From: Corynebacterium sp.
GTDB taxonomy: Bacteria > Actinomycetota > Actinomycetes > Mycobacteriales > Mycobacteriaceae
DNA length: 38,447 nucleotides
Assembly (NCBI GenBank): GCA_030530875.1
Contig: JAUMUD010000018.1
Coordinates: 1 to 38,447, forward strand
Direction: 5' to 3'
Every line of letters begins with the position of its first letter. Position 1 is the stretch's first letter. The notes below the pieces were generated by a model. It worked only from the letters and a program-made list of their open reading frames with translations. It made no database searches and had not been told where the DNA came from. Below, one piece after another: positions 1 to 38,243 of the stretch. Made by a program: the position numbers and the translations under genes.

Positions 1-165
1 AAGGACGCTGATAAGAAGGAGCCTGCAAAGAAGGGCCTTCTGGATACTATCAAGCAGTTCGTTCTTAAGAACAAGATTGTCGTGGCCATTGTTGCCCTCC
101 TGGCAGTGCTTGGTCTTGGCGGTGCAGCAGCTGCCAATGCTGGTCTTCTGCCACCAGCACCATGA
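1..165 (+). CDS. C-terminal end of a surface protein of the local propeller family (partial)
   Basis: Only the last 54 codons are in the window, open from base 1 and ending at a TGA at 163-165. They encode a Lys/Glu/Asp-rich stretch, an amphipathic segment (LLDTIKQFVLKNK), a hydrophobic helix of about 20 residues rich in Ala, Leu and Gly, and the ending GLLPPAP. The same pattern closes the proteins at 456-2768 and 3134-5605, so this is most likely a further paralogue of the secreted beta-propeller proteins, transcribed in the same direction. Its N-terminal domains lie outside the window, so whether it really has a propeller is unknown. No basic cytoplasmic tail follows the helix and there is no LPxTG sorting motif. 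Confidence 0.75.
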   Translation, partial: KDADKKEPAKKGLLDTIKQFVLKNKIVVAIVALLAVLGLGGAAAANAGLLPPAP

Positions 166-214
166 CCTTAGTCAACATAAGCCTGGTGCTTTAGGCTACC
201 GGGAGTATCAAATT

Positions 215-246
215 AGCGTCCCATCCGATAGGGTGGGGCGCTTTTT
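215..246 (+). terminator. Rho-independent terminator of the upstream partial gene
   Basis: A 12-bp stem (215-226 with 231-242, two G-U pairs in the RNA) closes on a GATA loop and runs into five T residues. It lies 50 bases after the stop of the partial gene. Confidence 0.85.
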
Positions 247-393
247 CATGCGTGAATGCTGTGATATATCGCATATTTTTGGGAACATGTGCGTGTGTTT
301 GCGCATGTAGTGGGCTGATTGGAATTTTGTGAAACTTTTATGCAACACGAAGGTACTTGTGAGGGTAGGAATAAAACTTTAGTATGAGTTGCG

Positions 394-412
394 TTAGGTT
401 CACCTTACTAAG
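394..412 (+). promoter_or_regulatory. Probable DtxR iron box upstream of the 456 gene
   Basis: The sequence beginning TTAGGTTCACCTTACTAA matches most positions of the known 19-bp DtxR operator TTAGGTTAGCCTAACCTAA, including an intact left arm. A further half-site (AAGGTAAGCC) overlaps its right end. The site is about 45 bases before the start codon, where a repressor would block transcription when iron is plentiful. Apart from this and the terminator, nothing else is seen between 166 and 455. Confidence 0.65.
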
Positions 413-455
413 GTAAGCCACAGTTTATGTTCGTTGTTGTAGGGGAGTTTTCTTC

Positions 456-2768: not shown

Positions 2769-2817
2769 AGCATCTGCGCGGATCTAGCCCTGCGTTAGAT
2801 TTTTAGATTTAGCCCAC

Positions 2818-2846
2818 AGGCGTCAGGTTTTTACCTGGCGCCTTTT
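2818..2846 (+). terminator. Rho-independent terminator after the 456 gene
   Basis: An 11-bp stem (2818-2828 with 2833-2843, one G-U pair) with a TTTT loop is followed by TTTT. It sits 50 bases past the stop codon. Confidence 0.85.
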
Positions 2847-3077
2847 GTGATCTTCGACATAAGAATCTGTGGTTCTTTTCCTCTTGTTGGTATGTGATGG
2901 TGTGATGGATGCCTTATTTTCAAAGGCGACACGGGTCGTTTTCGCAGCGTGTGGAACTGTTTTCTTTTTAGTCCTTTGCATTTCCTATTTCTTCCATGTG
3001 AATCCAGGTGAATGGATAAGTGGTTTCAAGTCATTGAAAATTTTGCGTCGAATAGGAATCTATGCAATTCTTGTACG

Positions 3078-3110
3078 TAGGCAAGCCTAAGCAAGGTTAG
3101 CCTAATGTTG
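3078..3110 (+). promoter_or_regulatory. Two overlapping DtxR-like iron boxes upstream of the 3134 gene
   Basis: TAGGCAAGCCTAAG (3078-3091) and AAGGTTAGCCTAATG (3093-3107) are adjacent matches to the core of the DtxR operator; the second contains the central AGGTTAGCCTAA intact. They end about 25 bases before the start codon. The rest of 2847-3077 is AT-rich and shows no credible gene. Confidence 0.7.
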
Positions 3111-3133
3111 TTGCTACTAAAAAGAGGAGTCAT

Positions 3134-5605
3134 ATGACCCCGCAATATTCCATTGGCAAGCGCCTGACTACCCTCAGCCTTGCAGGACCACTCGTACTTA
3201 CTGGTGTTATTGCACCACAGTTCATTTCAAGCCCAGCGGCCAGTGCGGCCACTCTGAACACAAGCCCACAGCTCACCGTATTGACCCCGCAACCGCAGGG
3301 TGGATACCAAGCAGGGGATGTCATCCAATTCCAAATCACTAATTTCCCAAGCAGCCCGGAATATCTGCTCTACCGCTTTGCAGGGGACTTTATCCCAGAT
3401 ACGGCAAAGACAGACGCAGCCATCAAAAACATGGCTGAAGGAGAAGAAAAGACGAAGGCACGCGCGGAATTCGCGGGCATCTTCGGGCCAGATTTTGAAT
3501 TCAAGTCGGATAGCAATGGAAACTACTATGCTTACCTGATAGATTCGAAACTCGCCGCGCTCAAGGCTTCCGGCAAGGGCATTGTGAATCTTACAGTGCC
3601 GCCGGTCGACGACTACACCCAGGCAAACTCCAGGGAGTTCCTCCCGCTGCTTGCTCCAAGCGTGAGCCTTCGTGCTTATGGATTGAAGTTCCAGGCCAAG
3701 CAGGCGGAGCATACCTCCCTCACCGCGAAATATTCCGAGAATATTCTGGTCAGTCAGATTGGTGCCACCCCAGCAAGTGCTGCGCTCAACACTGATGCCA
3801 AGGGAACAGTGACCCTTAATCTTCTTGGTCTAACTGCCGGCGCGCAGCTCAGTGAGATCAGTATCAAGAATGGCGACACTGAGGTAGCAAGCCTCAGCAA
3901 GAAGAGCATTTCCACCCCACGCGGTTTTAGTACCACCATTCCGGAATCCGGAAATCTCAGTGCCACACTGACCGTGCCATTGGCGGCTATCTCGGCCCAG
4001 ACCCAATACACCATCACTGCAAGCGTGGCAGGGCAGGAGTACACGACCGCATATACCCCAAGCGGTGTAGTGGCCTATACCAATGATGACCACTCTGAGG
4101 ATGAACTGCTCGCTGGTTCTACTGGTACAGTGACCCTCTATGGCCTGGCCGATGTGGCAACCATTACCAAGGTAAGCTCCGGTTCAACTGACTTCACCAT
4201 TGGAACCGCAACCCCAGCCACAAATGGCATTGCCACTGTTGCTGGCGTGAAGATCCCTAATGATTCCAGCGTCAAGGCAAAGCCAATCACGGTCACCTAC
4301 CAGATGAGTGGCCAAAGCTATACCACCACCTCAGATATCCTGGTCGAGGGTAGCTTTGCGGAAAATACCGCCAACTACACTATCGAGCAAAAGGAACTCG
4401 ACTCTGGTCTCTATCAGTCCGCCTACGATGCGAAGAATGACCTACTCTATGTCACTCGCGCTGTCGGCCGTCCACCAATTAAGCAGTCCACGCTCTATGC
4501 CATCAAGGCAGGGGATCTCACAGTAGAGAAGGAGACTACCCCAGCTGATGGGGGCACGGTCGATGGTCGTGCTGTTGGCCTCTATGCTGTTTATGGTGTC
4601 GCTGTGGATAGCACCCGTGGGCAGGTTTGGGTTTCCAATACCCGTCAGAACACCATTGCGGTCTATGATGCTGAGCTCAACCTACTGCATCAATTCGACT
4701 CTGGCTCCATCGCACACTCTCGTGATCTGCTTGTCGATGAATCCACTGGCAAGGTCTATGTCACCGGTGCTAACCGCGCCGGGCAGTCCGAGATTGCAGT
4801 CTTTAGCTATGACAAGACCAATGGGGCCAAGGAGTACAAGGAACAAGAGGTCACCTTTGGGGATGGCACTGTTCCAATGTCCCTGGTTGCCGCGAAGGAT
4901 GCTGATGGTGGGGTAGAGAAGCTCTACACCATCAATATGGCTAAGCCGGAGTTGCTCATCCTTGACCTCGGTGACGGCACATCCCCAATTGGTGTGAAGC
5001 GAATTGCTCTCGGTGATGACCTCAAGCAGGCCTCTGGCGTGGCCTTGGATACCAAGCGTAATAAGGTGTATGTCGGTGGTCAGGGTTCTGATGTCATCAA
5101 GGTCATTGACCTCGCTACTGAGGCTGTCACCAGCATTGATGCGGGTGCAAGTACCCTCAACCTTGTCTATGAACCAGTAAATGATGAGGTTTGGGCCATT
5201 AGCCGTGAGGGCAACCGCGCCACTGCCATTGATGCCGAAACCGGCACTGTAAGCGCTCGTATCCCGGTGGGCGTCTATGCTAACCACGCCTCTGTTGATG
5301 GCAAGGGTAGCGTCTATGTGGTCAATAAGGCGGCCCGTGATGGCAAGGATGTGCTCTTCAAGATTACAAAGAATGGCGTATCGGAAGAGCAGAAATCTTC
5401 TGAGCAGAAGCCTTCGGAGCAGAAGCTTGCTGATCAAAACGAAGCTGATAAGCAGCAAGAGCCTCAAAAGGGCGTATTTGCCAAGGTCAAGGACTTCTTT
5501 GTTAAGAACAAGCTAATTCTTGGCATTGTGGGTCTGCTGCTTGCACTTGGCGCGGGTGCGGCCAATGCACTAAGCCTCAGTCTCATTGCTTTGCCACCAA
5601 TGTAA
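3134..5605 (+). CDS. Secreted Ig-like / beta-propeller surface protein with an N-terminal charged insert
   Basis: This encodes 823 residues, the largest propeller paralogue that lacks an HtaA domain. The ATG follows AGAGGAG by 4-5 bases. A signal peptide (1-38, ending AASA-A) precedes a diverged form of the shared N-terminal domain (QLTVLTPQ … ITNFP). That domain is interrupted by a charged, probably helical insert (about 84-150) absent from the paralogues. Two further beta domains occupy about 195-300 and 305-405. The propeller spans 421-747 with the family signatures GLYQSAYD, VWVSNTRQNTIAVYD, HSRDLLVDE and ANHASVD. The linker contains EQK-Ser repeats (near 750-765). The C-terminus has KNK, a hydrophobic run and IALPPM. 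Expression is probably iron-repressed (boxes at 3078-3110). The ligand is unknown; a haem, siderophore or host-protein binding role is inferred from context only. Confidence 0.85.
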   Translation: MTPQYSIGKRLTTLSLAGPLVLTGVIAPQFISSPAASAATLNTSPQLTVLTPQPQGGYQAGDVIQFQITNFPSSPEYLLYRFAGDFIPDTAKTDAAIKNMAEGEEKTKARAEFAGIFGPDFEFKSDSNGNYYAYLIDSKLAALKASGKGIVNLTVPPVDDYTQANSREFLPLLAPSVSLRAYGLKFQAKQAEHTSLTAKYSENILVSQIGATPASAALNTDAKGTVTLNLLGLTAGAQLSEISIKNGDTEVASLSKKSISTPRGFSTTIPESGNLSATLTVPLAAISAQTQYTITASVAGQEYTTAYTPSGVVAYTNDDHSEDELLAGSTGTVTLYGLADVATITKVSSGSTDFTIGTATPATNGIATVAGVKIPNDSSVKAKPITVTYQMSGQSYTTTSDILVEGSFAENTANYTIEQKELDSGLYQSAYDAKNDLLYVTRAVGRPPIKQSTLYAIKAGDLTVEKETTPADGGTVDGRAVGLYAVYGVAVDSTRGQVWVSNTRQNTIAVYDAELNLLHQFDSGSIAHSRDLLVDESTGKVYVTGANRAGQSEIAVFSYDKTNGAKEYKEQEVTFGDGTVPMSLVAAKDADGGVEKLYTINMAKPELLILDLGDGTSPIGVKRIALGDDLKQASGVALDTKRNKVYVGGQGSDVIKVIDLATEAVTSIDAGASTLNLVYEPVNDEVWAISREGNRATAIDAETGTVSARIPVGVYANHASVDGKGSVYVVNKAARDGKDVLFKITKNGVSEEQKSSEQKPSEQKLADQNEADKQQEPQKGVFAKVKDFFVKNKLILGIVGLLLALGAGAANALSLSLIALPPM

Positions 5606-5631
5606 ACCGAAGGACATTTTGAACCGACATA

Positions 5632-5677
5632 AGCTCCCGGTTGCCCAGAATTCTTCTGAGCGGCGGGGAGCTCTTTT
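5632..5677 (+). terminator. Rho-independent terminator after the 3134 gene
   Basis: Outer stem AGCTCCC (5632-5638) pairs with GGGAGCT (5666-5672). An inner CAGAA/TTCTG stem closes the long arm, and CTTTT follows. Confidence 0.7.
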
Positions 5678-5693
5678 AGTATTCTTGTGGCGC

Positions 5694-5709
5694 TGTGATA
5701 TAAATCACC
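5694..5709. promoter_or_regulatory. GlxR (CRP-type) binding site candidate
   Basis: TGTGATATAAATCACC matches the corynebacterial GlxR consensus TGTGANNTANNTCACA at every specified position except the last. GlxR is the cAMP-responsive global regulator. The site lies about 265 bases before the 5975 gene, just beyond the terminator of the preceding gene, so any effect would be on the 5975 promoter from a distance. The remainder of 5710-5918 shows no gene. Confidence 0.55.
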
Positions 5710-5918
5710 AAATATTTTTCTGTGAGAAAGCGTAATGTGCTTTTCCGTAAGTTAGCGCTCGTGCTTGAGGGATCTGACCTGTGTGCATGGGCCAAAAGTT
5801 GATGAATAAATAATTTAGTTCTCATGGGGATTTATCCTTCGATCGGTGCCTGAAAATGGGGGAAGTTGCATGGGAAGGGCTTGAAATTTAACTCAGTGTA
5901 GCCTTAGTATTCCGTTGG

Positions 5919-5937
5919 GTAGGTTGGCCTAACTTAG
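5919..5937 (+). promoter_or_regulatory. DtxR iron box upstream of the 5975 gene
   Basis: GTAGGTTGGCCTAACTTAG matches about 15 of 19 positions of the DtxR operator. A second weaker copy (TTAGGGCAGCCTTGATT) overlaps it at 5934-5950. It sits 38 bases before the chosen start codon. Confidence 0.75.
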
Positions 5938-5974
5938 GGCAGCCTTGATTTGGTTTCTATGTGAAAGGGCTTTC

Positions 5975-8245
5975 ATGGCTTTGAAGAATACTGTTGGTGG
6001 CCGCGCTATTGCGGCTGCTCTTGCCGGTGCACTCTCTCTTGGTATCGCTGGCAGCATTGTTATTGCACCACATGCTATGGCAGTGGAGGGGTCCAAGGTT
6101 AATGCAGGCCAGGGTACTCTGACCATTCTGAATAAGGACTCTGCTGTTAAGCCAGGTGGCACCCTTTACGTCCAGATGTCTGGTTTCCCAGCCAATGAGA
6201 ATTACTATGCACTCAAGATTGATCGCAATGCCATCACTCAGGATGCAGCAGGCGATGATGTTACCCTCAATGGCGCCGATAGCTATGTCTCCGATGAAAA
6301 GTTCGCTGAGATTAACCCAACTGGTGCCGGTATCTTCAAATTCACCATTCCAAGCTCTGTAGCTGCTGGTGACCACACTCTGTACCTGTTGAGCTCCAGC
6401 CCAGCTAACTCTGTCCAGGTCGGCTTCACCGTTAGTGACTCCGCAACTGACTATGACGCAAATGCTGTTAGTGCTGATCTAAGCTTCAGCAGTGTAAGCC
6501 TGGGCAATGACGGCACTATTTCCGGCAGTGTTGCAGCCACCCTGGCTAATGTGCCAGCTAATGCAGCTGTGAGTGCTTACCTTGATGGCGACACCAATGC
6601 TGCTCTTCAGTGGGCAGGTCAGGGCCGTGGCGCAAAGCCATCTGCTACCAAGAATGCCGATGCCAGCGGTGCTGTGAGCGGCAACCTGAGCATCCCAGCT
6701 GCTGGTCTTGGTGCAGGCTCTACCCACAAGATCACCTTCTCGTGGAGCGATGGTTCTGCAACCAAGACTGTGGACGCCACCTATACTGCTGGTACTTCCG
6801 CTTCCTTCCTTAATGATGATGCGGCCCTGGGTACCAAGGCTGTTCTTGGTTCCAAGGGCACCGTGACTGTTATTGGTCTTGCTTCCGGCTCCACCATCAC
6901 CGCTCTAAAGTTCGGCGACACCAAGGTGAATAGCGATAATGTCACCGCTTCGGGTACGTACAAGGACACTGTTGCTATTAGCATTCCTAGCGATACCAAC
7001 ATTGCCAATAAGAACCTGACTATCACTTATAATGACGCATCGGGTGTTGCTCATACCGACACTATTAGCGCCATCACCAGCGCTGTTGATACCTCCAATG
7101 GTGCTGATAAGTTCACCGTGAGCCATGTCGATGTTGACTCCGCCCTGTATCAGAGCGTGTATAGCACTGTGACCAATAAGTTCTATGTATCCGGTTCCGG
7201 CAACTTCTTTATCGTTGACCCAGCTACCGGCAATGTTGAGAAGCAGCAGGCTCTGCCAGGCACCGCTGAGGGTGGCTACAATGTCTTCGGTATTGGTCTT
7301 GACCAGTCCACCGGCGATGTATGGGTTACCAACTCTCGTAATAACACCCTCGCTGTATATGACAAGGATCTGAACCTTAAGAAGCAGTGGGCAGCTAATA
7401 TCACCACAGGTTCCCGCGATGTTGCCTTCGACTCCAAGAACGGTATCGCCTGGGTGAGCTCCCCAACCGCAGGTAAAATCTGGGGCTTCAAGGCTGACAG
7501 TGACAATCCAGTAGTTACCCTCGACTCCACCAATTTTGGTACTGGCTTCGGCCCAATGTCGCTCAGCCTCGATGGCACCAATAATGCTCTCTATACTGTG
7601 AGCCTCAACACCAAGGCTGCTGCCAGGATTGATCTCAGCAACCCAACCAACCCAACTGTTAGCACCTATGATCTCTCCTCGCTTAGCGACGCTGAGTTCA
7701 AGACCGGTGCTGGTGCTGCTATCAATCCTGACAAGAACCTGCTCTATGTCACCAGCCAGGCTGGCAACTCCGTGATCGCCATTGACACCACTAGTGGTCA
7801 GATCGCTAATAAGATCAACATCGGTGACGGTGGCCTCAATGCTGTTTATAACGCACCAAAGAAGCAGCTCTATGTCACGAGCCGTGCAGGTTCTAACCTG
7901 ACTGTCATCGACACTGAGACCAATAACATCCTGGCCAACCTCAACATGGGCCTCAATGCTAACCACGCTTCCGTGGATACCAATGGTGATGTTCTGGTTG
8001 TGAACAAGGCTAACCGTAACGGTAAGGACTCCATCTACAAGGTTGTCTACACCGGCACTACCTCTTCCGATAACAGTGCAACCCCAGCTCCTGAGAATAA
8101 GAGCGCATTTGCTAAGTTCATCGACTGGATCAAGAACAATATCCTGCTCGTCGGTGGTGTTACCGGTATCCTCGCTGTTCTTGCAGGTATCGGCGCAGCC
8201 ATTCAGAACGGTCTCATCGCCCTCCCATCAGCTCCTGGCATCTAA
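5975..8245 (+). CDS. Secreted Ig-like / YncE-type beta-propeller surface protein
   Basis: This encodes 756 residues. The ATG at 5975 is chosen over an in-frame start 10 codons upstream because GAAAGGG precedes it and the signal peptide (1-37, ending HAMA-V) then begins normally. Domain order is: shared N-terminal domain (47-155, GTLTILNKD … SGFP … ALKID … GDHTLYLL), second beta domain (about 165-273), third (about 275-370), propeller (387-690), short linker, and hydrophobic C-terminus (about 722-750) ending IALPSAPGI. Propeller signatures include ALYQSVY, VWVTNSRNNTLAVYD and NHASVD. It is the closest relative of the 456 product. The His of the HARD/HSRD motif in its paralogues is Gly here (GSRD). 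The upstream region carries an iron box and a GlxR-like site. Function is not established; surface ligand binding is likely. Confidence 0.85.
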   Translation: MALKNTVGGRAIAAALAGALSLGIAGSIVIAPHAMAVEGSKVNAGQGTLTILNKDSAVKPGGTLYVQMSGFPANENYYALKIDRNAITQDAAGDDVTLNGADSYVSDEKFAEINPTGAGIFKFTIPSSVAAGDHTLYLLSSSPANSVQVGFTVSDSATDYDANAVSADLSFSSVSLGNDGTISGSVAATLANVPANAAVSAYLDGDTNAALQWAGQGRGAKPSATKNADASGAVSGNLSIPAAGLGAGSTHKITFSWSDGSATKTVDATYTAGTSASFLNDDAALGTKAVLGSKGTVTVIGLASGSTITALKFGDTKVNSDNVTASGTYKDTVAISIPSDTNIANKNLTITYNDASGVAHTDTISAITSAVDTSNGADKFTVSHVDVDSALYQSVYSTVTNKFYVSGSGNFFIVDPATGNVEKQQALPGTAEGGYNVFGIGLDQSTGDVWVTNSRNNTLAVYDKDLNLKKQWAANITTGSRDVAFDSKNGIAWVSSPTAGKIWGFKADSDNPVVTLDSTNFGTGFGPMSLSLDGTNNALYTVSLNTKAAARIDLSNPTNPTVSTYDLSSLSDAEFKTGAGAAINPDKNLLYVTSQAGNSVIAIDTTSGQIANKINIGDGGLNAVYNAPKKQLYVTSRAGSNLTVIDTETNNILANLNMGLNANHASVDTNGDVLVVNKANRNGKDSIYKVVYTGTTSSDNSATPAPENKSAFAKFIDWIKNNILLVGGVTGILAVLAGIGAAIQNGLIALPSAPGI

Positions 8246-8340: not shown

Positions 8341-8361
8341 TTCATTATTGAGGAGTTTTAT

Positions 8362-8898
8362 ATGAAGAATCGCTTTTCTCGTCCCCTCGCTGGCGCTTTT
8401 GCTGTAGCACTCATTGGCTTCGCTGCTCCAGCTGTTCCAGTAATCTCCGGTAGCCTCAGTGCAGTTGCCCTCCCACCGGGTGGTGCTGTGGAAAAGGGTG
8501 AAGGTACTCTCAGTGTCGGTAATCCTGATGGCAAGGTTGAAGCAGGTGGCCTGCTTATTGTGAAGGGTACTGGCTTTGCTGAGAATCATTCTTACCTGGC
8601 CATTAAGCTGGATCAGACCGAGCCAGCCGAGGACTTTGACGGCGATGATGTCGTGAAGGATGCTTCTGACGGTAAGTTCTACGTGGTTGACTCTAAGGTT
8701 CCACATGGTAGCGGTGATTTTGAATTCACTCTCCGCTTGCCGGCAAATATCTCTCTTGGCACCCACGAGATTCGTGTTCTTGATAATAATCCTGCAGTCT
8801 CCAAGGCGGCGAACTTCACTGTCGTGGAGGCAGCCCAGACCTCTGAGAATCTTCCTTGGTATAAGAAGCTCTTCACTAGCAGTGGTCTTAGCTCCTAA
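8362..8898 (+). CDS. Small secreted single-domain protein (shared N-terminal domain only)
   Basis: This encodes 178 residues. The ATG at 8362 follows GAGGAG by 6 bases; an upstream in-frame start would break the signal peptide. Residues 1-36 are a signal peptide, then ALPPGG, a motif also found after the signal peptide of the 12377 product. Residues 47-155 are the same beta domain that opens the large propeller proteins (GTLSVGNPDGK, KGTGF, LAIKLD, GTHEIRVL, FTVVE). A short tail (NLPWYKKLF) ends the protein without a membrane helix, so it is predicted to be free in the periplasm or medium. Its size and iron-box context suit a carrier, analogous in idea to a haemophore, but no haem-ligand motif is recognisable. 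It may instead be a degenerate duplicate of the propeller genes. Confidence 0.8.
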   Translation: MKNRFSRPLAGAFAVALIGFAAPAVPVISGSLSAVALPPGGAVEKGEGTLSVGNPDGKVEAGGLLIVKGTGFAENHSYLAIKLDQTEPAEDFDGDDVVKDASDGKFYVVDSKVPHGSGDFEFTLRLPANISLGTHEIRVLDNNPAVSKAANFTVVEAAQTSENLPWYKKLFTSSGLSS

Positions 8899-8910
8899 TA
8901 GTCATGCTCC

Positions 8911-8942
8911 AAAGCGTCACGCATTTGCGTGGCGCTTTTTGT
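8911..8942 (+). terminator. Rho-independent terminator after the 8362 gene
   Basis: A 12-bp stem (8911-8922 with 8927-8938, one G-U pair) with an ATTT loop runs into a T-rich tail. Confidence 0.88.
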
Positions 8943-9219
8943 TTAGTTTTGCGCTGCCTTCTGCCTCGGTAGTGTGGGTTTTTAAGATTCTCGGGCTCTT
9001 CGCTCTGTCTTCGCTCTGTCCTTGTTGAAAAGAGATGGATAGGCCGAAGATGAAGAATTCGCTATAGGCTGCTGGCACAGCTGCATGTGTGGGGTATGAG
9101 GGGCGTCGAAAAGCAAAAATAGGGGGCGGACTTTGGGGAATGTGATCTTTTCTGGTTTTATGCAAAAAAGCTTGCTTTATGTTTTAGCTTTATTTAGGAT
9201 AAATGAGGACAGGCTTAGA

Positions 9220-9238
9220 TAAGGTAGCACAGGCTTAG
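9220..9238 (+). promoter_or_regulatory. Weak DtxR-like box upstream of the transporter operon
   Basis: TAAGGTAGCACAGGCTTAG has both arms of a DtxR site (AAGGTAGC and AGGCTTAG) but a poor centre. It is about 45 bases before the start of the substrate-binding protein gene. The rest of 8943-9219 holds no credible gene, only an 11-base tandem duplication (TTCGCTCTGTC, 8999-9020). Confidence 0.4.
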
Positions 9239-9284
9239 TTAAGAATAACTTCTTGTGTTGCCGGCATTCGACACAGAGGGATCC

Positions 9285-10271
9285 ATGCGTCGTCGTAGTT
9301 TTCTTGGATTAATGGCCGTAACCGCACTCGGCCTAACAGCATGCGGAAAGAATAATGGTGGGGCAGCGGTAAGTGGACCGAGTCGCACCATTCAGGATGT
9401 GTGGGGCAAGGATATTGCCGTGCCGGAGAATCCACAGCGAATTATTTCTCTTTCGGAACCAACCATTGACTCTTTGGCGGCGCTGGGAGTAAGCCCGGTT
9501 GGTGCCGTGGCCGGTCGTGGCCAGTCGGATTTGGCACCTTATATTAAGTCCTATTTTCCTAATGTGCCTTTGATGGGTGTGGTGTCCCAGCCAAACTTTG
9601 AGGCCATTGGTGCTGCTAGGCCGGATTTGATTCTGGTGGATGGCACCTCGGTGAATAATAATCAGCCGGTGCTGGATGCCCTGGCTAAGATTGCGCCGAC
9701 CGTGTACACCGGCAATGCTGGTGGTGACTGGAAACAGAATTTTAGGATTGTGGCCAATGCTGTGAATAAGGCAGCGGATGGGGAGAAGGTCATTGCTGAT
9801 TATGATGCGCGCTGCGTGGAATTGAAGGCCGCGCTTGCCCCGGATTATGGGGATTCGACCTTTAGTATTGTGCGCTGGCAGGGCACTAGTGCCGCGCTGA
9901 TTTTGAAAGAGTTGCCGGCCGGTCGCGCGCTCAATGATGTGGGTTTGAAGCGCCCACCAAGCCAGGACCGTGAGGGCATGGGCCACTCAGACCCTGTATC
10001 CAATGAGAACCTCAAGGATATTGATGCCGACTATATTTTCTTCGGCACTTTGGGTGGTTCCTCAGTTTCGAATCCGAATGCCGGTGGCACCGTGGATGAG
10101 GCTGCCGCCCAGCAGGCCCTCTCGGTGGCTGAGGGCGTTCCTGGGTTTACAGATCTTGAGGCCTATAAGAATGGCAAGATTTTGCCCGTGGATGGTTCCG
10201 TGTGGACCTCGACCGGTGGGCCAAAGCTCATGGACCGTATTTTGAGCGATATTCAGAGCTTGTTGCTTTAA
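9285..10271 (+). CDS. Iron-siderophore/haem ABC transporter substrate-binding lipoprotein (FepB/FecB family)
   Basis: This encodes 328 residues. The ATG at 9285 is preferred to an upstream GTG because it gives a compact signal sequence, MRRRSFLGLM … LTAC, with a twin-arginine motif (RRSFL) and a lipobox Cys, and GAGGG lies just upstream. After export the Cys would be lipidated and the protein held on the outer face of the plasma membrane. From residue 38 it has the periplasmic-binding fold of Fe(III)-siderophore receptors (VWGKDIAVPENPQRIISL, LAALGVSPVGAV, FEAIGAARPDLIL). It is the first gene of a six-gene operon ending with permeases and ATPase. The permeases resemble FepD/FepG more than HmuU, so a siderophore is the better guess for its ligand, though haem is not excluded. 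The gap to the next gene is only 11 bases. Confidence 0.88.
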   Translation: MRRRSFLGLMAVTALGLTACGKNNGGAAVSGPSRTIQDVWGKDIAVPENPQRIISLSEPTIDSLAALGVSPVGAVAGRGQSDLAPYIKSYFPNVPLMGVVSQPNFEAIGAARPDLILVDGTSVNNNQPVLDALAKIAPTVYTGNAGGDWKQNFRIVANAVNKAADGEKVIADYDARCVELKAALAPDYGDSTFSIVRWQGTSAALILKELPAGRALNDVGLKRPPSQDREGMGHSDPVSNENLKDIDADYIFFGTLGGSSVSNPNAGGTVDEAAAQQALSVAEGVPGFTDLEAYKNGKILPVDGSVWTSTGGPKLMDRILSDIQSLLL

Positions 10272-10282
10272 GCGGGGCAGTA

Positions 10283-12376
10283 ATGAAAGTAATTAAGAGA
10301 ATTTTGGCCTGCAACTTTGCGGCCTTGTTGGTTGCTGGCGTGGGTATCGCCGGTGTTTCGGCGCATAATGCGGCTGGCTCCGCAGTGGCTGTGGCTGCGG
10401 AAAACAGCACGGCATCCTTTAGTTTATCTACGACTAATGTGACCTCCTCCCAGCATATTCGGCTCACTGGTTCCGGGTGGACCACGGAATCTGGTTCAGG
10501 TTCCACTGTGGTGCTGAAACTCAAGTACACCCTGCCTGGTGGTAGTGGGGATTCCTACTATTCGCGCAGTGGCAGTGATATCAAGAACCACCCTGGTAAT
10601 GGCAAGGCTGATGCCACCATTTGGCTGCTCGTTACTGCGGATTCTTCCGGAAATTTCGATGAGGACCTGGACCTGCCATCGGGTTTGGTGGCGGGGCAAA
10701 AGCTCACAGTCCAGCTCACCTCCGGCTTGGTGGATGGGGATGTGCAGCGCTCCCAAAGTTCTGATCCCTTGGTAGTGGATGGGGTGGCCTGGGCTGGTGG
10801 CAGCCAGGAAACCAAGAACTGTGTCCCCTCCGTTTCCACCCCTGAGGTCGGTGTGGGCGATAGCCTCAATGAGGATGGCACCCTGACAGTCTGGGGTAAA
10901 GGCTTTTGTAACCCAAGCCTGGGTGGTGCGAAGGTGGCCATCAAGATCGATGAGGGTAAAATCTCCCGCCTCAATGAGGACTTAAGTTCCAATACCACCA
11001 TTTGGGCCATTGTTCGCGGTAATGATGAGAATGGTGACTGGTCGATTAATATGACCATCCCTGATGGAACGACCAATCTGCCTAATGGCTCCACCCCTGC
11101 CTTTGACCGCTCCACCACGCACACCCTGCGCTTCCTTTCTGGTTCCCTGCAGGATAATGACCCAATTATCTCCCTGCCTAAGCGCGGTAGCCAGCCAATT
11201 AGCTTCAGCGCCGGTGCCTATAAGCCAAGCGGTGCGCCGGACCCACTGGACTATAAGGAAAACCTGGTCGGTTCCGCACAGAACGGGGTCAATATTGACC
11301 TGACCGATGATAAGAAGATTATTGTCGATGTCCCCAATGCTGAGGCTGGTGACTGGGTTTACCCATCCATCTATATTGCTGATGGTTCCGTGCGCTACCC
11401 ATGGGGTGGTGATTGGTATCAGCTGGATGACAATAAGAACATCACTCTGCCTGGCGATGGGGTGAGCCTGCCAAATGGCAAGCTCAAGTTCGTGGTTCAG
11501 AATGGCAATAAGGGCCACTTAGGTGAGCTCATGGGTTGGACTTGGTGGACGCGCTCCGTGAGCGACTCGAATTCGGATTCTGATTCCACCAGCTCCACCA
11601 CCACGCCACCTTCGGACTTGCCAGGTTATTTGGCTGATGGCGCCAATGTGGTTGCCGGTCTTTTGAGCTCCGTAAATGCGCTGGTAAACCAGGCATATCC
11701 GCCACCACCAAGCCCTGAGGAACCACAATCTGTGGACACCACCGAAGCAGCCACCGTGACCAATGTGGCCCCCGCAACCACGGAGGAAGTGGTGGTGCGT
11801 CGAAACGCAAATAACAGCGGGGCGCGCGTGGCAAGCGCGGGTTCTGGGAGCGGAATTTCTGCTGCTGCCGCACCAACCACCACCCCCAACCTGGCCGTGA
11901 AGGAAGAAAGCGCGCTGCGCCCGGCGAACTCCGGCAAGATGCGCGGGGAGCAAAAGGATGATTCCCTGAGCATCACCTTCACCAACCCAAGTGGTGAAAC
12001 CGCGCCGGGCTCCTGGGTGTACCTCTACGCCTTCACCCCGGCCCTGACCCCAATCGGCTGGACACAGATCGGCGATGGGGGCGTGCTGAAACTGCAGCTT
12101 GGCGCGCTAAGCCAGGACACGAAACTCGCCATTGCCGCCCCAAGCGGTGATTTGCTCGGCTGGTTCAAGGTCCGGGCCACCGGGAATAGCAGCAGTGCCG
12201 CGAATTCCGGGGCTGATATTGCCCCAGTGGTGGTAGTCCAACAGGGACCAACCCGCGCCCTTGACTGGATTTTGATTATTGCCGCGATTATTTTCGTCGA
12301 GGCCCTTGGATATTGCATTTATCTGGTCCGACGCCATAAGTCCCTTCGCCCAGTTCCCGTGGAGAAAGAAATTTAA
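10283..12376 (+). CDS. Plasma-membrane-anchored multi-domain Ig-like protein in the iron transporter operon
   Basis: This encodes 697 residues of no family I can name. The start at 10283 gives a signal peptide (about 1-39) and lies 11 bases after the preceding stop, with a weak ribosome site (GCGGGG). Two related beta domains follow (about 46-165 and 205-310). Both show an L-T-x-x-G-x-G-(W/F) opening, a TIW(L/A)-(L/I)V core and a (SG)-L-x-D-(G/N)-D ending. The second domain contains two Cys (NCVPS and FCNPS) that could form a disulfide. A third beta region (about 340-430) is followed by Ser/Thr/Pro-rich linkers, a further beta domain (about 555-630), a helix (661-682) and a basic cytoplasmic tail. 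The tail-anchor topology differs from the propeller proteins. Its place between substrate-binding protein and permease suggests a receptor or relay partner. Confidence 0.8.
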   Translation: MKVIKRILACNFAALLVAGVGIAGVSAHNAAGSAVAVAAENSTASFSLSTTNVTSSQHIRLTGSGWTTESGSGSTVVLKLKYTLPGGSGDSYYSRSGSDIKNHPGNGKADATIWLLVTADSSGNFDEDLDLPSGLVAGQKLTVQLTSGLVDGDVQRSQSSDPLVVDGVAWAGGSQETKNCVPSVSTPEVGVGDSLNEDGTLTVWGKGFCNPSLGGAKVAIKIDEGKISRLNEDLSSNTTIWAIVRGNDENGDWSINMTIPDGTTNLPNGSTPAFDRSTTHTLRFLSGSLQDNDPIISLPKRGSQPISFSAGAYKPSGAPDPLDYKENLVGSAQNGVNIDLTDDKKIIVDVPNAEAGDWVYPSIYIADGSVRYPWGGDWYQLDDNKNITLPGDGVSLPNGKLKFVVQNGNKGHLGELMGWTWWTRSVSDSNSDSDSTSSTTTPPSDLPGYLADGANVVAGLLSSVNALVNQAYPPPPSPEEPQSVDTTEAATVTNVAPATTEEVVVRRNANNSGARVASAGSGSGISAAAAPTTTPNLAVKEESALRPANSGKMRGEQKDDSLSITFTNPSGETAPGSWVYLYAFTPALTPIGWTQIGDGGVLKLQLGALSQDTKLAIAAPSGDLLGWFKVRATGNSSSAANSGADIAPVVVVQQGPTRALDWILIIAAIIFVEALGYCIYLVRRHKSLRPVPVEKEI

Positions 12377-13303
12377 ATGTTGACCAAAACCGTACACTCC
12401 ATCGCTGCCCTGGGCGGCGCAATTTTCCTCGCTGGTGTGAGTGCCTTTAGTGGGGGCACGGCTATGGCGCTGCCACCGGGCGGTGCCAGCTCTGATACCC
12501 CCGGTACCAGCTCTTATGTGAGCCCCACCAGCCTGAAGGCCTGCGAAACCCTCTCCTATTCGGTCTCTGGTTTCCCTGCCGGTCAGATTGTCTATATCAA
12601 GATCGATGATGGCTCCGCCTCCTCCGGCGACCAGTCCATTCAGGGGCAGGGTGTTGTGGCTCAACAACGCATTGATTCCTCCGGTACGGCCGCCGGCTCC
12701 TTTAGCCTCCCCTGTGATTTGGCCCCTGGCGATCACTGGCTGCGCTACCTGGCTGCCGAAAGCTCTTCGGCCGGTGGCACCATTGGTTATAGTAACCGCG
12801 GTGATTCGAACTTCACCATTGTTTCCTCCTCCAATAGTGATGACAGCAGTAGCACCACCACCGCCACCACCACCACTGCGGCCAGCAGTGGTTCCGGTTC
12901 CGGTTCGGGCGGCGGCTCCCAGCCTGTTACGCAGGTCACCGTCAATGCCGCCGGTGAGCGTGTGGTTGTGACCCGCTATGTGGATGAGCCGGCGGACCCG
13001 GCGAGCGGTAATTCGGCGTCGAATTCTAATGCTGGTGTTAATGCCGGTGGCTCAACCGCTGCGACGACTTCTTCGAACCTGCGCCTTGGTGCTGCTGGGT
13101 CCACTGGCTCGGGTGGGAATTCTGGTTCAAGTGGTACTAGTGGTGGTTCGGGATCTGTCGTGTATGCCGCGGGTTCCACGGGCAAGCCTGTGATTGGTCT
13201 GCTTGTGGGCGGGGCCATCTTGATTGTTGGTCTGCTTGGTATTTGGGCTTATCTCTATGTGAATAAGCCACGCTACCAGGATGGGGAATACGCAAATTTT
13301 TAA
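12377..13303 (+). CDS. Plasma-membrane-anchored single-domain protein in the iron transporter operon
   Basis: This encodes 308 residues. The ATG follows the preceding stop with no gap, and GGAGAAAGA lies just upstream. After a signal peptide (1-32, ending AMA-L) comes LPPGG, as in the 8362 product, then one copy of the shared beta domain (about 48-155: SYSVSGFPAG, VYIKIDDG, APGDHWLRYL, FTIV) with two Cys (KACE and LPCD) that could be bridged. A long Ser/Thr/Gly/Asn-rich low-complexity stalk (about 155-265) leads to a transmembrane helix (271-293) and a short cytoplasmic tail. The stalk could span the peptidoglycan and present the domain away from the membrane. The ligand is unknown. The shared domain ties it to the propeller proteins, and the operon ties it to iron import. 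Confidence 0.8.
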   Translation: MLTKTVHSIAALGGAIFLAGVSAFSGGTAMALPPGGASSDTPGTSSYVSPTSLKACETLSYSVSGFPAGQIVYIKIDDGSASSGDQSIQGQGVVAQQRIDSSGTAAGSFSLPCDLAPGDHWLRYLAAESSSAGGTIGYSNRGDSNFTIVSSSNSDDSSSTTTATTTTAASSGSGSGSGGGSQPVTQVTVNAAGERVVVTRYVDEPADPASGNSASNSNAGVNAGGSTAATTSSNLRLGAAGSTGSGGNSGSSGTSGGSGSVVYAAGSTGKPVIGLLVGGAILIVGLLGIWAYLYVNKPRYQDGEYANF

Positions 13304-13350
13304 ATGCCCGCCAGCGCACGGGCAATAATATTTCCCGTGGTAGGGGCCCT

Positions 13351-14388
13351 GTGCCACGACCTGCTGTGAAGCGTCATGAGATGACCGGTAAAGCCAAGCG
13401 CTTTGCCGCACGACGCTGTGCCATTGCGGCCATAGTGGGTCTGGTATTGGTGCTGGTGGGAGCGCTTCTTTCCCTCATTATTGGTTCCGGCCATATTGGC
13501 ATGGGCCAGTCCCTGCACTTGCTATTCCACCCGGATGGCTCCTTTGAATCCACCGTGATTCACTCCCAGCGTATTCCGCGCACCATTCTTGTCATTCTTG
13601 TGGGCATGGCACTTGGTGTGGCCGGTGCACTCATGCAGTCCTTCACCCGCAACCCCCTGGCCGACCCCGGTGTGCTGGGTGTGAATGCTGGTGCGGCCAT
13701 TGCGGTGGTCTGTGCCGTGGCTTTCTTCAATATTGTGAGCATCTGGTTCTACCTGTGGTTTGCCTTCCTGGGTGCGGCCATGACCAGTGTGGCGGTCTAC
13801 CTGCTTGCGGGTATTCGTGCAACCCCTGCCCGATTAGCCCTTGCCGGTGTGGCCATTTCCATGGCGGTGACCTCCTTGGTGCAGATGGTTATTCTGTCCA
13901 ATCAGAATGCCTATAATGAGTTCCGCTTCTGGGCGGCCGGCTCCGTGGAGGGCCGTGGCCCAAGCATTATCTATGCGATTGTGGGCTTTGTGCTGGTGGG
14001 TTTGGTGCTGGCCTTCCTCTGTGCCCCTGGTCTCAATGCCCTTGCCCTGGGTGAGGATTCCGCCAAAGCCCTTGGGGCACGTATTGGGATTATCCGCGCG
14101 GCTGTGATGGTGGCCATCACCCTTCTTGCTGGTAGTGCCACTGCGGCGGTTGGTCCCATCATGTTCATCGGTCTGGGTGTGCCCTATATTGCCCGCGCCA
14201 TTACGGGGCCGGATCAACGCTATGTGCTGCCACTTTCGGCTCTTGCCGCCCCGGTGGTTCTGCTCGCTGCTGATTTGCTTGCCCGCCTGGTTATCGCCCC
14301 GCAGGAAATTCAGACCGGTGTGGTTACCGCCATCCTTGGTGGCCCTGTCTTTATTGCCCTGATTCGTAGCAGGAAGGTGAATCTCTAA
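13351..14388 (+). CDS. Iron-siderophore ABC transporter permease, FepD-like (FecCD family)
   Basis: This encodes 345 residues of the BtuC/FecCD permease family, with about nine or ten hydrophobic helices. Family motifs are clear: SQRIPRTILVILVGMALG, MQSFTRNPLADPGVLGVNAGA, and near the C-terminus GPIMFIGLGVPYIAR. NPLADPGVLGVNAGA is typical of FepD-type siderophore permeases. The GTG at 13351 has AGGGG upstream; an ATG at codon 11 is an alternative without a ribosome site. The 47-base gap from the previous gene contains only a small GCCCG/CGGGC hairpin with no T tract. The stop overlaps the next start (TAATG). It should pair with the following gene product to form the channel. Confidence 0.92.
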   Translation: MPRPAVKRHEMTGKAKRFAARRCAIAAIVGLVLVLVGALLSLIIGSGHIGMGQSLHLLFHPDGSFESTVIHSQRIPRTILVILVGMALGVAGALMQSFTRNPLADPGVLGVNAGAAIAVVCAVAFFNIVSIWFYLWFAFLGAAMTSVAVYLLAGIRATPARLALAGVAISMAVTSLVQMVILSNQNAYNEFRFWAAGSVEGRGPSIIYAIVGFVLVGLVLAFLCAPGLNALALGEDSAKALGARIGIIRAAVMVAITLLAGSATAAVGPIMFIGLGVPYIARAITGPDQRYVLPLSALAAPVVLLAADLLARLVIAPQEIQTGVVTAILGGPVFIALIRSRKVNL

Positions 14389-15380
14389 TGCGATATGAAA
14401 AGAGAAGCCTGCTTATCTGGGCAATCCTGGCTGTGGTACTTTTTGCTGCTGCGGTGGTGGCTCTCATGATCGGTGATTATCACATCAGCCCGATTAATGT
14501 GGTGGGCGCTATCTTTGGCAGCAGTGCCGATCCGCTGGCCACTTTCTTTGTGCAGGATATGCGCGCCCCACGTGTGGTTATGGCCCTGCTTGTGGGCCTC
14601 GCCCTGGGGCTCTCTGGCTGCATTTTCCAGTCGGTGACCAATAATCCACTGGGTTCCCCGGATATCACTGGCTTTAGTGTTGGTGCGGCTACCGGTGCGC
14701 TGCTTCAAATCATTGTTTTTGATGGTGGCGTCTATGCCGTTGCCCTAGGTGCCATTGTTGGTGGCGCCATCTCCGGTCTGCTGGTGTACCTGCTTGCCCG
14801 TGGCGGTGGCGGTACGCGCTTTGTGCTCATCGGTATTGGTGTCTCGGCCATCTTGAGCGGTGTGAACTCCCTGCTCATTGTCCGTGCCTCCCTTCAGGCC
14901 GCGCAAACCGCCTCGGTGTGGATGTCCGGTTCCTTCAATGCCACGACCTGGACGCAGTGCTCCGCGCTCTTTGCCGCACTGATTATCTGCGTGCCCCTGG
15001 CCCTGCTCCTTGCCCGCCCGCTGGCCATTATGACCAGTGGCGATGAGCTCGCCCACGGTCTTGGTGTGAATGTGAACCTGCGCCGCCGTCAGCTCCTCGG
15101 TCTTGGTATTATTCTTGTGGCCGTTGCTGTGGCCTCCTCGGGTCCGATTAGCTTCGTGGCCCTGGCCGCCCCGCAGCTTGCCCGCCGCCTGACTAAGAGC
15201 TCTGGCATTTCCATGTTGGCCTCCGGCCTGATGGGTGCCGCCATTGTCCTTATCTCTGATATCATTGCCCAGCGAATCTTTGCCCCAACCCAGCTTCCTG
15301 TTGGTGTGGTCACCGGTGTGCTTGGTGGTATTTACCTTATTTGGCTTCTGGCCATTGGAATGCGAAAGAAGAACTCATGA
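14388..15380 (+). CDS. Iron-siderophore ABC transporter permease, FepG-like (FecCD family)
   Basis: This encodes 330 residues and is the second FecCD permease. Motifs include APRVVMALLVGLALGLSGC, the FepG-like SVTNNPLGSPDITGF, LVYLLARGGGGTRFVLIGIG, and GPISFVALAAPQLARRL before the last helices. Start and stop codons overlap both neighbours (1 base with the permease before, 4 bases with the ATPase after), indicating translational coupling within the operon. A FepD plus FepG pair is the usual architecture for hydroxamate or catecholate siderophore importers in Gram-positive bacteria. Confidence 0.92.
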   Translation: MRYEKRSLLIWAILAVVLFAAAVVALMIGDYHISPINVVGAIFGSSADPLATFFVQDMRAPRVVMALLVGLALGLSGCIFQSVTNNPLGSPDITGFSVGAATGALLQIIVFDGGVYAVALGAIVGGAISGLLVYLLARGGGGTRFVLIGIGVSAILSGVNSLLIVRASLQAAQTASVWMSGSFNATTWTQCSALFAALIICVPLALLLARPLAIMTSGDELAHGLGVNVNLRRRQLLGLGIILVAVAVASSGPISFVALAAPQLARRLTKSSGISMLASGLMGAAIVLISDIIAQRIFAPTQLPVGVVTGVLGGIYLIWLLAIGMRKKNS

Positions 15381-16150
15381 CTCAGTCCCTCTCAGCCAAG
15401 AATATTACTGTCGGCTACGGTGAAAAGATCATCATTAATGATCTCAGCGTTGATATTCCCGCCGGCGAGTTCACCGCCATTATTGGCCCTAATGCCTGTG
15501 GTAAGTCCACGCTGCTCAAGACCCTTTCGCGCATGCTGGAACCCAAAAAGGGCGTAGTGGAACTCAATGGCAAAAATATTAAGGAGTACTCCACCAAGGA
15601 AGTTGCCCGCCAATTAGGCCTACTCCCTCAAAGTCCCATCAGCCCTGAGGGCATTCGCGTTGAGGACCTCGTCGGTCGCGGCCGCTACCCCCACCAGGGC
15701 CTCTTCAACCAGTGGTCCTCCAAGGACACCGAAGCAGTCGAACGCGCCATGGCCCGCGCCAAGGTCAGTGACCTCAAGGATCGCTATGTGTCCAGCCTCT
15801 CCGGTGGTCAGCGCCAGCGCGTGTGGATCGCCCTGGTTCTTGCCCAGGAAACACCCATCGTGCTTCTGGACGAACCAACCACCTACCTCGACATCACTCA
15901 CCAGGTCGAAGTCCTCTCCCTGGCCCGCTCCCTCAAAGAAGAAGGCTTTACCGTGGTGGCCGTGCTCCACGAACTCTCCCTGGCCTTCCGCTATGCCTCC
16001 AATCTCATCATGATGAAGAATGGATCCATTGTCGCCCAGGGTGATGTCAAGGAGACCGTGACCCCGGAACTCATCGAGCAGGTCTACGAACTCCCATGTG
16101 ATATCCTCACTGACCCGCGCAGTGGTTCCCCCATTGTAGTCCCGCGCTAA
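15377..16150 (+). CDS. Iron-siderophore ABC transporter ATP-binding protein, FepC-like
   Basis: This encodes 257 residues; the ATG at 15377 overlaps the preceding TGA (ATGA). Walker A is GPNACGKST (37-45), the signature is LSGGQ (141-145), Walker B is IVLLDEP (161-167) and the H-loop His is 198. GRGRYPHQGLF (100-110) is characteristic of the FepC/FecE subfamily. It energises import through the two permeases. It is the last gene of the operon and ends 32 bases from the convergent pncB stop. No clear terminator hairpin is visible in that gap, so read-through antisense to pncB is possible. Confidence 0.94.
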   Translation: MTQSLSAKNITVGYGEKIIINDLSVDIPAGEFTAIIGPNACGKSTLLKTLSRMLEPKKGVVELNGKNIKEYSTKEVARQLGLLPQSPISPEGIRVEDLVGRGRYPHQGLFNQWSSKDTEAVERAMARAKVSDLKDRYVSSLSGGQRQRVWIALVLAQETPIVLLDEPTTYLDITHQVEVLSLARSLKEEGFTVVAVLHELSLAFRYASNLIMMKNGSIVAQGDVKETVTPELIEQVYELPCDILTDPRSGSPIVVPR

Positions 16151-38237: not shown

Positions 38238-38243
38238 GCATCT

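Follow-up and report, generated by a model that had tools for sequence, protein, structure and literature searches.

The window, by which we mean the whole 38,447-nucleotide stretch of Corynebacterium sp. DNA analysed here, carries on its + strand, between positions 456 and 16150, a row of genes for three YncE-type propeller proteins (A, B and C), a small protein (D), a lipoprotein substrate-binding protein (SBP; E), two membrane-tethered proteins (F and G) and an importer resembling FepD, FepG and FepC (H, I and J), with E to J forming one close-packed gene row. The open reading frame (ORF) positions of the first-pass annotation are confirmed, and profile matches show that the row of surface proteins which it placed beside a FepBDGC-type importer is real.

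A (456–2768, +), B (3134–5605, +) and C (5975–8245, +) share a common architecture, consisting of a presumed Ig-like part (N-terminal in A), a YncE-type propeller and a C-terminal hydrophobic anchor. They match the NCBIfam 7_blade_YncE model with E values of 1.5e-20, 1.7e-19 and 5.6e-17, respectively, all far below its equivalog cut-off of 400 bits; judged by sequence, they are relatives of YncE and not YncE itself. Residues 385–701 of an A–C family profile align with residues 35–351 of Escherichia coli YncE (3vgz; E about 6e-40) in one alignment over the propeller. The best match in the protein data bank (PDB), and the only other strong one, is the YVTN propeller 1l0q (E 1.7e-41), which is named a surface layer protein. 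The three proteins are mutually diverged (about 29–30% identical). The most constant propeller residues include Arg, Lys, Asn and Tyr and are in good part common to E. coli YncE; some polar positions, partly common to YncE, are fixed across 25–29 proteins whose mean column identity is 25–29%. Weak PDB matches (E 0.008–0.05) were obtained to surface-layer and YncE-family proteins, a group that includes the cobalamin-binding BtuG of Bacteroides. The Pfam Lactonase family weakly matched A (0.006) and one relative (L048; 2e-4), both under the cut-off. No DUF4374 (XusB family) match was found in A, B or C with Pfam at E values up to 1, and membership of that family was rejected on this ground.

D (8362–8898, +) has a single hydrophobic segment near its N terminus (residues 10–28) and is devoid of a C-terminal transmembrane segment. 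Its one domain is a homologue of the domain with which A and C begin (BLAST E values of 5.7e-21 for A to D and 4.8e-21 for D to C). The ‘Ig-domain' label given earlier to proteins of this row lacks Pfam backing, as no Ig family matched A–G at E values up to 0.001; ‘Ig-like' is used here as a presumption based on relatives, with TIG matched in L051 (2.4e-6) and Ig in L049 (6.1e-7). The contig starts (1–165, +) with the C-terminal end of a truncated surface protein, whose frame-0 translation closes with a hydrophobic anchor resembling those of A–C; described previously as a partial propeller, it shows the anchor alone and no propeller residues. Searching the genome with the propeller profile recovered A, B, C, D and G, plus a weak hit on contig C39; this hit apart, no loose propeller piece was found.

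E (9285–10271, +) is a FecB/FepB-like member of the Peripla_BP_2 family (Pfam, 2.2e-19). Its Cys20, located by eye in a lipobox, is invariant in 27 relatives. Among NCBIfam models FecB ranks first (5.7e-22) and FepB second (2.9e-14), with IsdE at 0.038. E shares 26% identity with FepB over an alignment of only 156 residues, in which few basic FepB residues face basic residues of E, and no FepB-like pocket is proposed for it. Its best PDB relatives include both hydroxamate- and carboxylate-type binders, so that the ligand cannot be named from the SBP by itself. F (10283–12376, +) shows presumed Ig-like modules, a nearly invariant cysteine pair (C180/C209) and two copies of a GDWVY...GW module, while G (12377–13303, +) combines a domain related to C and D with a Ser/Thr/Gly-rich linker. 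Both end in a C-terminal hydrophobic segment with no LPXTG motif, neither has a Pfam or NCBIfam match below an E value of 0.03, and a PDB search with F gave nothing useful (best E 0.79). The length of F-like ORFs and the number of their modules differ widely, with up to 2374 residues in L050.

The importer comprises a FecCD permease, H (13351–14388, +; Pfam, 2e-87), a second permease, I (14388–15380, +; FepG model, 2.2e-88), and an ATPase, J (15377–16150, +; ABC_tran, 4.9e-33). Their best NCBIfam models are FepD, FepG and FepC (PRK10441, PRK10440 and PRK10253), all matched under the curated cut-offs, and BLAST aligns them with the E. coli proteins at 43% identity over 305 residues, 44% over 334 and 56% over 260, respectively. 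This resemblance bears out the assignment of a FepBDGC-type importer.

DtxR-like boxes and distribution of the locus

DtxR-like boxes were scored against the 19-bp consensus TTAGGTTAG(G/C)CTAACCTAA with a threshold of at least 13/19 matches. The window holds 13 such sites against 2.6 expected (maximum of 6 in 30 Markov shuffles), overlapping registers being counted apart here as in the shuffled controls. As proposed from the first inspection, boxes precede most units: overlapping sites of 14/19 and 13/19 lie upstream of A (389–412), three sites of 13/19, of which two overlap, upstream of B (3077–3110), overlapping sites of 13/19 and 15/19 upstream of C (5914–5937) and one of 13/19 upstream of E (9204–9222). 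A further box (14/19; 21503–21521) precedes the downstream gene Q, and two more sites are found elsewhere (6302 and 37273). Two apparent boxes before D fall in a GC-rich inverted repeat and were not accepted. The genome encodes two iron-dependent repressors, and the island is putatively under DtxR-type control.

In related loci, at the threshold of at least 13/19, boxes precede 19 of 26 propeller genes, 1 of 26 E genes, none of 121 F–J genes and 10 of 120 other genes, a contrast between propeller and other genes (Fisher 2e-11) that the non-independence of genomes of one genus leads the test to overstate; at a threshold of at least 14/19, the counts are 9/26 and 7/120. Since it is the propeller gene that a box precedes, and only very rarely E or what follows E, the propeller gene is probably the first of the importer operon in these relatives.

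Co-conservation of propellers and importer, which the first-pass annotation had set as a test, is found: among 242 Corynebacterium genomes, the propeller and E occur in the same 26, although the propellers of these very loci were the source of the search profile (A3), which therefore favours such proteins. F occurs in 27; the additional genome is 53% complete, and its F gene lies where a contig ends. A propeller gene lies together with E and F in 23 of 25 stretches of 20 kb; in the remaining two, the propellers lie just past the stretch end (G109) or at a distance of about 1.2 Mb (G021). Propeller copies located away from E (G103, G114, G140, G113 and G021) all belong to genomes that possess E. 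F is present in four of 394 genomes sampled at class level, beside E in each. With ORFs called mechanically (longest start), L007, L012 and L019 lack a gene labelled I, L011 lacks J, and L019, L023, L025, L026 and L027 lack G (unlabelled or labelled as D-like).

Orthologous loci are also scattered outside Corynebacterium, in Rothia, Microbacterium, Nocardioides, Nesterenkonia, Leucobacter and others, hosts that are not known to have a mycolate outer membrane. A relay starting from the mycolate outer membrane, as first suggested, is thus not the general explanation. By the criteria applied, the propeller is absent from 8 of 22 non-Corynebacterium loci, including three of Rothia, and is therefore not indispensable.

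Catecholate genes and the likely substrate

Genes for 2,3-dihydroxybenzoate (DHB) siderophores are found near several orthologous loci: DhbA-, DhbC- and DhbE-like genes in L005, DhbA and DhbC in L024, EntF-like non-ribosomal peptide synthetases (NRPSs) in L023, L025 and L027 (a C-A-PCP-TE NRPS adjoins the locus in Corynebacterium pelargi, in the same record as L027) and a DhbE-like gene in the Rothia mucilaginosa locus (L067), a species reported to make enterobactin (PMC7190385). Among loci of at least 15 kb, such neighbours are found in a minority, namely in 4 of the 14 from named Corynebacterium and in 7 of the 22 others. Genome-wide, DHB-ligase matches at E values up to 1e-120 occur in 22 of the 27 genomes with F and in 41 of the 215 others (Fisher 1.7e-10, overstated by relatedness within the genus), a threshold picked after the list was seen so as to part strong from weak matches; in 8 of the 22 genomes, the ligase lies within 20 kb of F. 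A 610-bit threshold, also picked post hoc and not used as the main statistic, gives 15/27 against 0/215. None of the ligase matches in the 242 genomes reaches the curated cut-off of the family, so that some may be other aryl-acid ligases. Taken together, the resemblance of H, I and J to FepD, FepG and FepC, the DHB/EntF-like neighbours of a minority of loci and the association of DHB-ligase matches with F make a DHB catecholate siderophore the most likely substrate.

Five of the 27 genomes with F have no ligase match at E values up to 1e-120, and the genome of the window is one of them. It contains neither a strong DHB-ligase match nor an NRPS condensation domain, and may therefore pirate siderophores.

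Proposed uptake route and related systems

We favour, with some reserve, the view that the island is a putatively DtxR-controlled system for uptake of a ferric DHB (enterobactin- or bacillibactin-like) siderophore, in which the propellers, F and G would hand the ligand to E and H–I–J. With its C-terminal anchor and presumed Ig-like stalk keeping it outside the membrane, the propeller domain would bind the ferric catecholate at a site made up of its best-conserved residues. F and G, which would be fixed in the cytoplasmic membrane and carry linkers, might pass or concentrate the siderophore across the wall, whereupon E would take it over for import by H–I–J. Here the system would scavenge siderophores of neighbours, and the three diverged propellers could serve different ones. 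Siderophore uptake in Gram-positive bacteria is described as the work of a lipoprotein and an ABC importer, and a surface receptor dedicated to it is not known. Propellers and tethered proteins that are inherited together and apparently regulated together make passage across the corynebacterial envelope directly testable. They also suggest that this Corynebacterium, apparently not a producer of NRPS-type catecholates, pirates siderophores.

The E. coli Fep system shares with the island the FepD/FepG/FepC-type components, a Peripla_BP_2 SBP and, in part of the relatives, DHB/EntF-like genes; however, the island SBP, a lipoprotein, belongs to a distinct subfamily that is closer to FecB, and the E. 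coli fep region examined has neither propeller genes nor tethered proteins such as F and G. The haem relay of Corynebacterium (HtaA/ChtA-HmuTUV) is similar in that iron-regulated, C-terminally anchored surface proteins feed a lipoprotein SBP, but it employs HtaA domains, absent from A–C, and lies at a separate locus in this genome. The closest functional precedent, as an analogy, is XusB of Bacteroides, a seven-blade surface propeller that binds ferric enterobactin (Kd about 55 nM) in an iron-induced system and hands it to XusA (PMC13142918). Like Bacteroidota, the genome of the window seems to lack the means of making the siderophore. XusB, however, is a lipoprotein of the DUF4374 family whose partner is a TonB-dependent transporter, whereas A–C would use an ABC importer and tethered proteins. 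Among corynebacterial systems, the siu clusters of C. variabile, a species with an entA-entC-entB-fes catechol pathway, similarly combine siderophore uptake, DtxR sites and genes of unknown function, but have AraC-type regulators, and the accessible text describes no propeller or capture proteins and does not contain the word ‘propeller' (PMC3219685). Likewise, the corynebactin importer CiuABCD of C. diphtheriae is a DtxR-repressed set of SBP, two permeases and ATPase, and neither ‘propeller' nor ‘YncE' occurs in the accessible text of the DtxR-regulon paper (PMC13001254). Among the matches listed from the openly licensed PMC literature, we recognised no link between propellers and siderophores in corynebacteria or actinobacteria.

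The E. coli yncE gene is described as induced by iron limitation, preceded by a Fur box and of no known function (PMC8896160, PMC7157518). YncE provides the best NCBIfam model of A–C and has motif residues in common with them; it differs in being a stand-alone protein of 353 residues, devoid of the N-terminal domains of A–C and encoded divergently beside the PQQ transporter gene pqqU. More tentatively, and at less than even confidence, we propose that in scattered actinobacteria YncE-type propellers serve as ferric-catecholate surface receptors, handing over through F and G to an SBP and FepDGC-type importer, as a siderophore counterpart of the Isd and HtaA haem relays. If so, the island offers a possible function for orphan YncE propellers, and the common residues would make ferric catecholates candidate ligands of the Fur-regulated E. 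coli protein.

Alternative readings

E–H–I–J could import a ferric catecholate without any direct role of the propellers and tethered proteins in transfer; under iron control, these would then be structural or adhesive surface proteins, or would bind host proteins or surfaces. This reading, to which we give perhaps a minor share of credence, draws on the surface-layer name of 1l0q, on the adhesin-like variability of F-like ORFs and on the 8 propeller-free loci; it is opposed by the identical genome sets of propeller and E, with F in every one, by the apparent lead of the propeller in the importer operon and by the fixed polar propeller residues, which fit a ligand site better than a scaffold. 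It seems less probable still that the propellers act chemically on the siderophore, for example by trilactone opening or redox, or that their ligand is a different small anion, PQQ or cobalamin for instance. The weak Lactonase matches, those to the group that includes BtuG and the proximity of yncE to pqqU point that way, and since pqqU is not Fur-regulated and gives no growth help under iron limitation (PMC7193533), YncE-type propellers may have other ligands; the DtxR-like boxes and the linkage and co-occurrence with DHB/EntF-like genes argue against this reading.

Acquisition of haem or haemoproteins, with the propellers and tethered proteins taking haem from host proteins for delivery to E, was rejected as the main reading and appears very improbable. 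What recommends it is the match to propeller repeats, weak in one case, of two proteins with HtaA domains encoded in this genome. Q (21521–24073, +), absent from the first-pass annotation and lying 5 kb downstream of the island, combines an HtaA domain (PF04213, 9.4e-20) with propeller repeats (1l0q, 1.1e-13) and a C-terminal hydrophobic segment; a 997-residue ORF on contig C39 matches HtaA at 6.6e-13 and YncE weakly (7e-5). Against it, the FepDGC-like importer is associated with catecholate-type biosynthesis genes, and E is far closer to FecB and FepB than to IsdE, whereas the SBP of a separate HtaA-SBP locus on contig C17, which we take to be the usual haem locus, matches IsdE at 3e-7. With Pfam, PF04213 gave no match in A–H or J and was found within the window only in Q. 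The earlier statement that the haem route does without propeller proteins is nonetheless doubtful in this genome, given the repeats in Q and, weakly, in the C39 ORF; by its box, Q is a putative member of the same regulon as the island.

Architecture of the locus and its surface proteins

The first-pass annotation described an iron-regulated island of propeller and Ig-domain surface proteins beside a FepBDGC-type importer. This observation was correct, and ORFs A–J are confirmed on the forward strand. The surrounding genome comprises 2.19 Mb in 67 contigs, and the contig start cuts the first gene of the window. Behind this truncated gene lie three YncE-type propeller surface proteins, A (456–2768), B (3134–5605) and C (5975–8245), and a small protein, D (8362–8898), followed by the substrate-binding protein (SBP) E (9285–10271), the membrane-tethered proteins F (10283–12376) and G (12377–13303), and the FepD-, FepG- and FepC-like importer subunits H (13351–14388), I (14388–15380) and J (15377–16150). 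Genes E–J are close-packed: neighbours overlap or are separated by no more than about 50 bases. The widest gap, that between G and H, contains a terminator-like hairpin (13305–13324). Further hairpins of this kind follow the truncated gene (215–242), A (2818–2843) and D (8911–8938); overall, the count of such patterns was 31, with 15.9 expected. The nearest among the fetched records is a Corynebacterium MAG (L031), whose E is 90% identical.

A, B and C share pairwise identities of about 29–30%, and each combines a propeller with a hydrophobic C-terminal segment; LPXTG is absent from all three. In a simple scan the N-termini of A, C, D, F and G were called hydrophobic, and those of B, E and the downstream HtaA-domain protein Q were not. 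The top NCBIfam model is 7_blade_YncE (A, 1.5e-20; B, 1.7e-19; C, 5.6e-17), at scores far below its equivalog cut-off, and a profile built from 25 relatives matches Escherichia coli YncE along its propeller (3vgz, 6e-40). Near-invariant residues of the family comprise the Y and Q of LYQ, the G of YG, the W and NT of VWVTNT, the R of HxRD, the N of NH and the K of NKA; YncE has the same residue at most of these positions (Y, G, W, NT, R, N and K) and an E in place of the Q. Protein D is similar to the N-terminal domains found in A and C. The 'Ig' label given earlier to the surface domains finds no Pfam match in the window, but TIG or Ig matches occur in two relatives.

F contains a module with a nearly invariant Cys pair (180 and 209) as well as a GDWVY...GW module in duplicate, and matched nothing useful in Pfam, NCBIfam or the PDB. 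In G, a domain homologous to C and D is accompanied by a linker of low complexity, and the C-terminal segment is hydrophobic in both F and G. The lipoprotein E belongs to the Peripla_BP_2 family; its top PDB profile match is YfiY (3tny, 5.5e-49), followed by SirA, FecB, HtsA and YclQ, with enterochelin-binding proteins and FepB ranking lower. For the importer subunits, identity is 43% between H and FepD, 44% between I and FepG, and 56% between J and FepC.

Elsewhere in the window, translations read by eye indicate a nicotinate phosphoribosyltransferase-like gene (16183–17487), a nicotinamidase-like gene (37671–38315) and a giant ORF resembling a type I fatty acid synthase (26977–36254) with an AcpS-like gene behind it. 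A homologue of this giant ORF adjoins the propeller–importer locus in L012 and L014 (the latter the same record as L042).

Co-conservation and distribution

Co-conservation of propeller and importer genes, which the first-pass annotation had proposed as a test, is clearly borne out. Among 242 Corynebacterium genomes, F is found in 27 (E-value ≤1e-5), protein E in 26 (≤1e-60) and the propeller in 26 (≤1e-40), the genome sets of the last two being identical; the sole genome added by F, G190, is 53% complete and carries F at a contig end. For the 25 F genomes other than G190 and the window's own, a 20-kb stretch was examined; 23 of these stretches hold a propeller gene together with E and F, and the usual order is propeller-E-F-G-H-I-J, a few genes being left unlabelled by ORF calling. 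In the two exceptions the propellers lie just outside the stretch (G109) or about 1.2 Mb away (G021). The G109 locus (L028) reads E-F-G-H-I-J-E-F-G, a single H-I-J set flanked by two E-F-G sets; its propeller genes lie further away.

Named genomes scanned with an E profile yielded 45 loci: 14 from Corynebacterium (each also among the records of the 25 relatives), 22 others measuring 15 kb or more, 8 shorter ones and one from Paenibacillus, which was put aside (26% identity). By combined HMM and BLAST criteria, the Corynebacterium loci contain propeller (14), F (14), G (12), FecCD (14) and ATPase (14) genes; the corresponding counts for the 22 are 14, 17, 16, 21 and 16. Their hosts include Microbacterium, Nesterenkonia, Nocardioides, Rothia, Leucobacter, Brevibacterium, Cellulomonas, Gulosibacter and Phytohabitans. 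A class-level sample of 394 genomes, among them the window's, has F in four, each time adjoining E, and these four hold the top four of 11 E scores; the seven lower-scoring E-like matches come without F at E-value ≤1e-20. The propeller–importer system is thus patchily distributed. In two Coriobacteriales loci, E is preceded by an F-like ORF, of 2374 aa in L050 and of 2242 aa in L060. Two Rothia loci (L067 and L068) have F-like and G-like genes with a DhbE-like gene adjoining and, by our own criteria, no propeller within 10 kb; they are possibly a natural propeller-free version.

This distribution bears on the proposed relay from the mycolate outer membrane. To our knowledge, some locus-bearing hosts, in genera such as Rothia, Microbacterium and Nocardioides, lack mycolates, so that such a relay is possible in Corynebacterium but is not the general function. 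Matches to PF00756, the fold of mycolyltransferases but a broad family, occur at seven places in the window genome; they are compatible with a mycolate envelope and prove nothing.

DtxR-like boxes

The published DtxR consensus used was TTAGGTTAG(G/C)CTAACCTAA (PMC1382209). Sites with at least 13 of 19 matches number 13 in the window against 2.6 expected, overlapping registers being counted apart in both figures. A, B and C are each preceded by a box of their own (at 389, 3077 and 5919, respectively), and E by a weaker one at 9204. In the 25 relatives, the 450 bases around each called start were searched (no fewer than 350 where a contig ended). Boxes reaching this threshold precede propeller genes in 19 of 26 cases, E genes in 1 of 26, F–J genes in 0 of 121 and other genes in 10 of 120 (Fisher 2e-11 and 2e-18); at 14/19 the counts are 9, 1, 0 and 7. 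Since boxes sit before the propeller, hardly before E and never before F–J, the propeller probably heads a DtxR-controlled operon in these relatives.

Candidate substrate and alternative functions

Judged from sequence, the island most likely serves ferric-catecholate capture and import. Genes resembling those for 2,3-dihydroxybenzoate siderophore biosynthesis lie beside the locus in some relatives: DhbA-, DhbC- and DhbE-like genes adjoin it in L005; in C. propinquum (L024, the same record as L056) DhbA and DhbC adjoin it and DhbA/B/C/E-like genes lie on its flanks; and L023, L025 and L027 have an adjoining NRPS with EntF as best model. In C. pelargi (L054, the same record as L027) a 1331-aa NRPS of C-A-PCP-TE organisation lies behind the locus. 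Isochorismatase-like proteins at these loci match general family members only. A DhbE-like gene adjoins the locus of Rothia mucilaginosa (L067), a species for which enterobactin production has been shown (PMC7190385); the word 'transporter' is absent from the main text of that study. Matches to the ligase family TIGR02275 (E-value ≤1e-120) occur in 22 of the 27 F genomes versus 41 of the 215 others (Fisher 1.7e-10), although none in the 242 genomes reaches the curated cut-off and some may therefore represent other aryl-acid ligases. Among the 22 F genomes with a match, 8 have the ligase no more than 20 kb from F. The window genome is 93.9% complete; it has no TIGR02275 match at E-value ≤1e-50 and no NRPS condensation domain was found in it, from which we infer that it may use xenosiderophores, an assembly gap being the alternative. 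Its closest relative, G192, has a ligase match.

The best precedent for A–C is XusB of Bacteroides, a seven-blade propeller reported to bind ferric enterobactin (Kd about 55 nM) and hand it on to a transporter (PMC13142918), although XusB is a DUF4374 protein and A–C lack DUF4374. In E. coli, iron limitation induces yncE, a gene that carries a Fur box and whose function is described as unknown (PMC8896160, PMC7157518). It divergently adjoins pqqU, whose product is reported not to be an iron transporter (PMC7193533), and this neighbourhood leaves room for other anionic ligands. Besides ferric-catecholate import, the surface proteins might be purely structural or enzymatic, or the island might take up haem. 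The last is the weakest of these three rivals because contig C17 carries a separate locus, taken for the usual haem locus, that encodes a 628-aa protein with two HtaA domains and, directly behind it, a Peripla_BP_2 lipoprotein.

Protein Q (21521–24073) consists of an HtaA domain, propeller repeats and a hydrophobic C-terminus, and has a DtxR-like box (14/19) directly upstream at 21503. A 997-aa ORF on contig C39 (L080, 166–3159), with weak propeller-repeat matches followed by an HtaA domain (PF04213, 6.6e-13), is perhaps a second HtaA–propeller protein of this genome.
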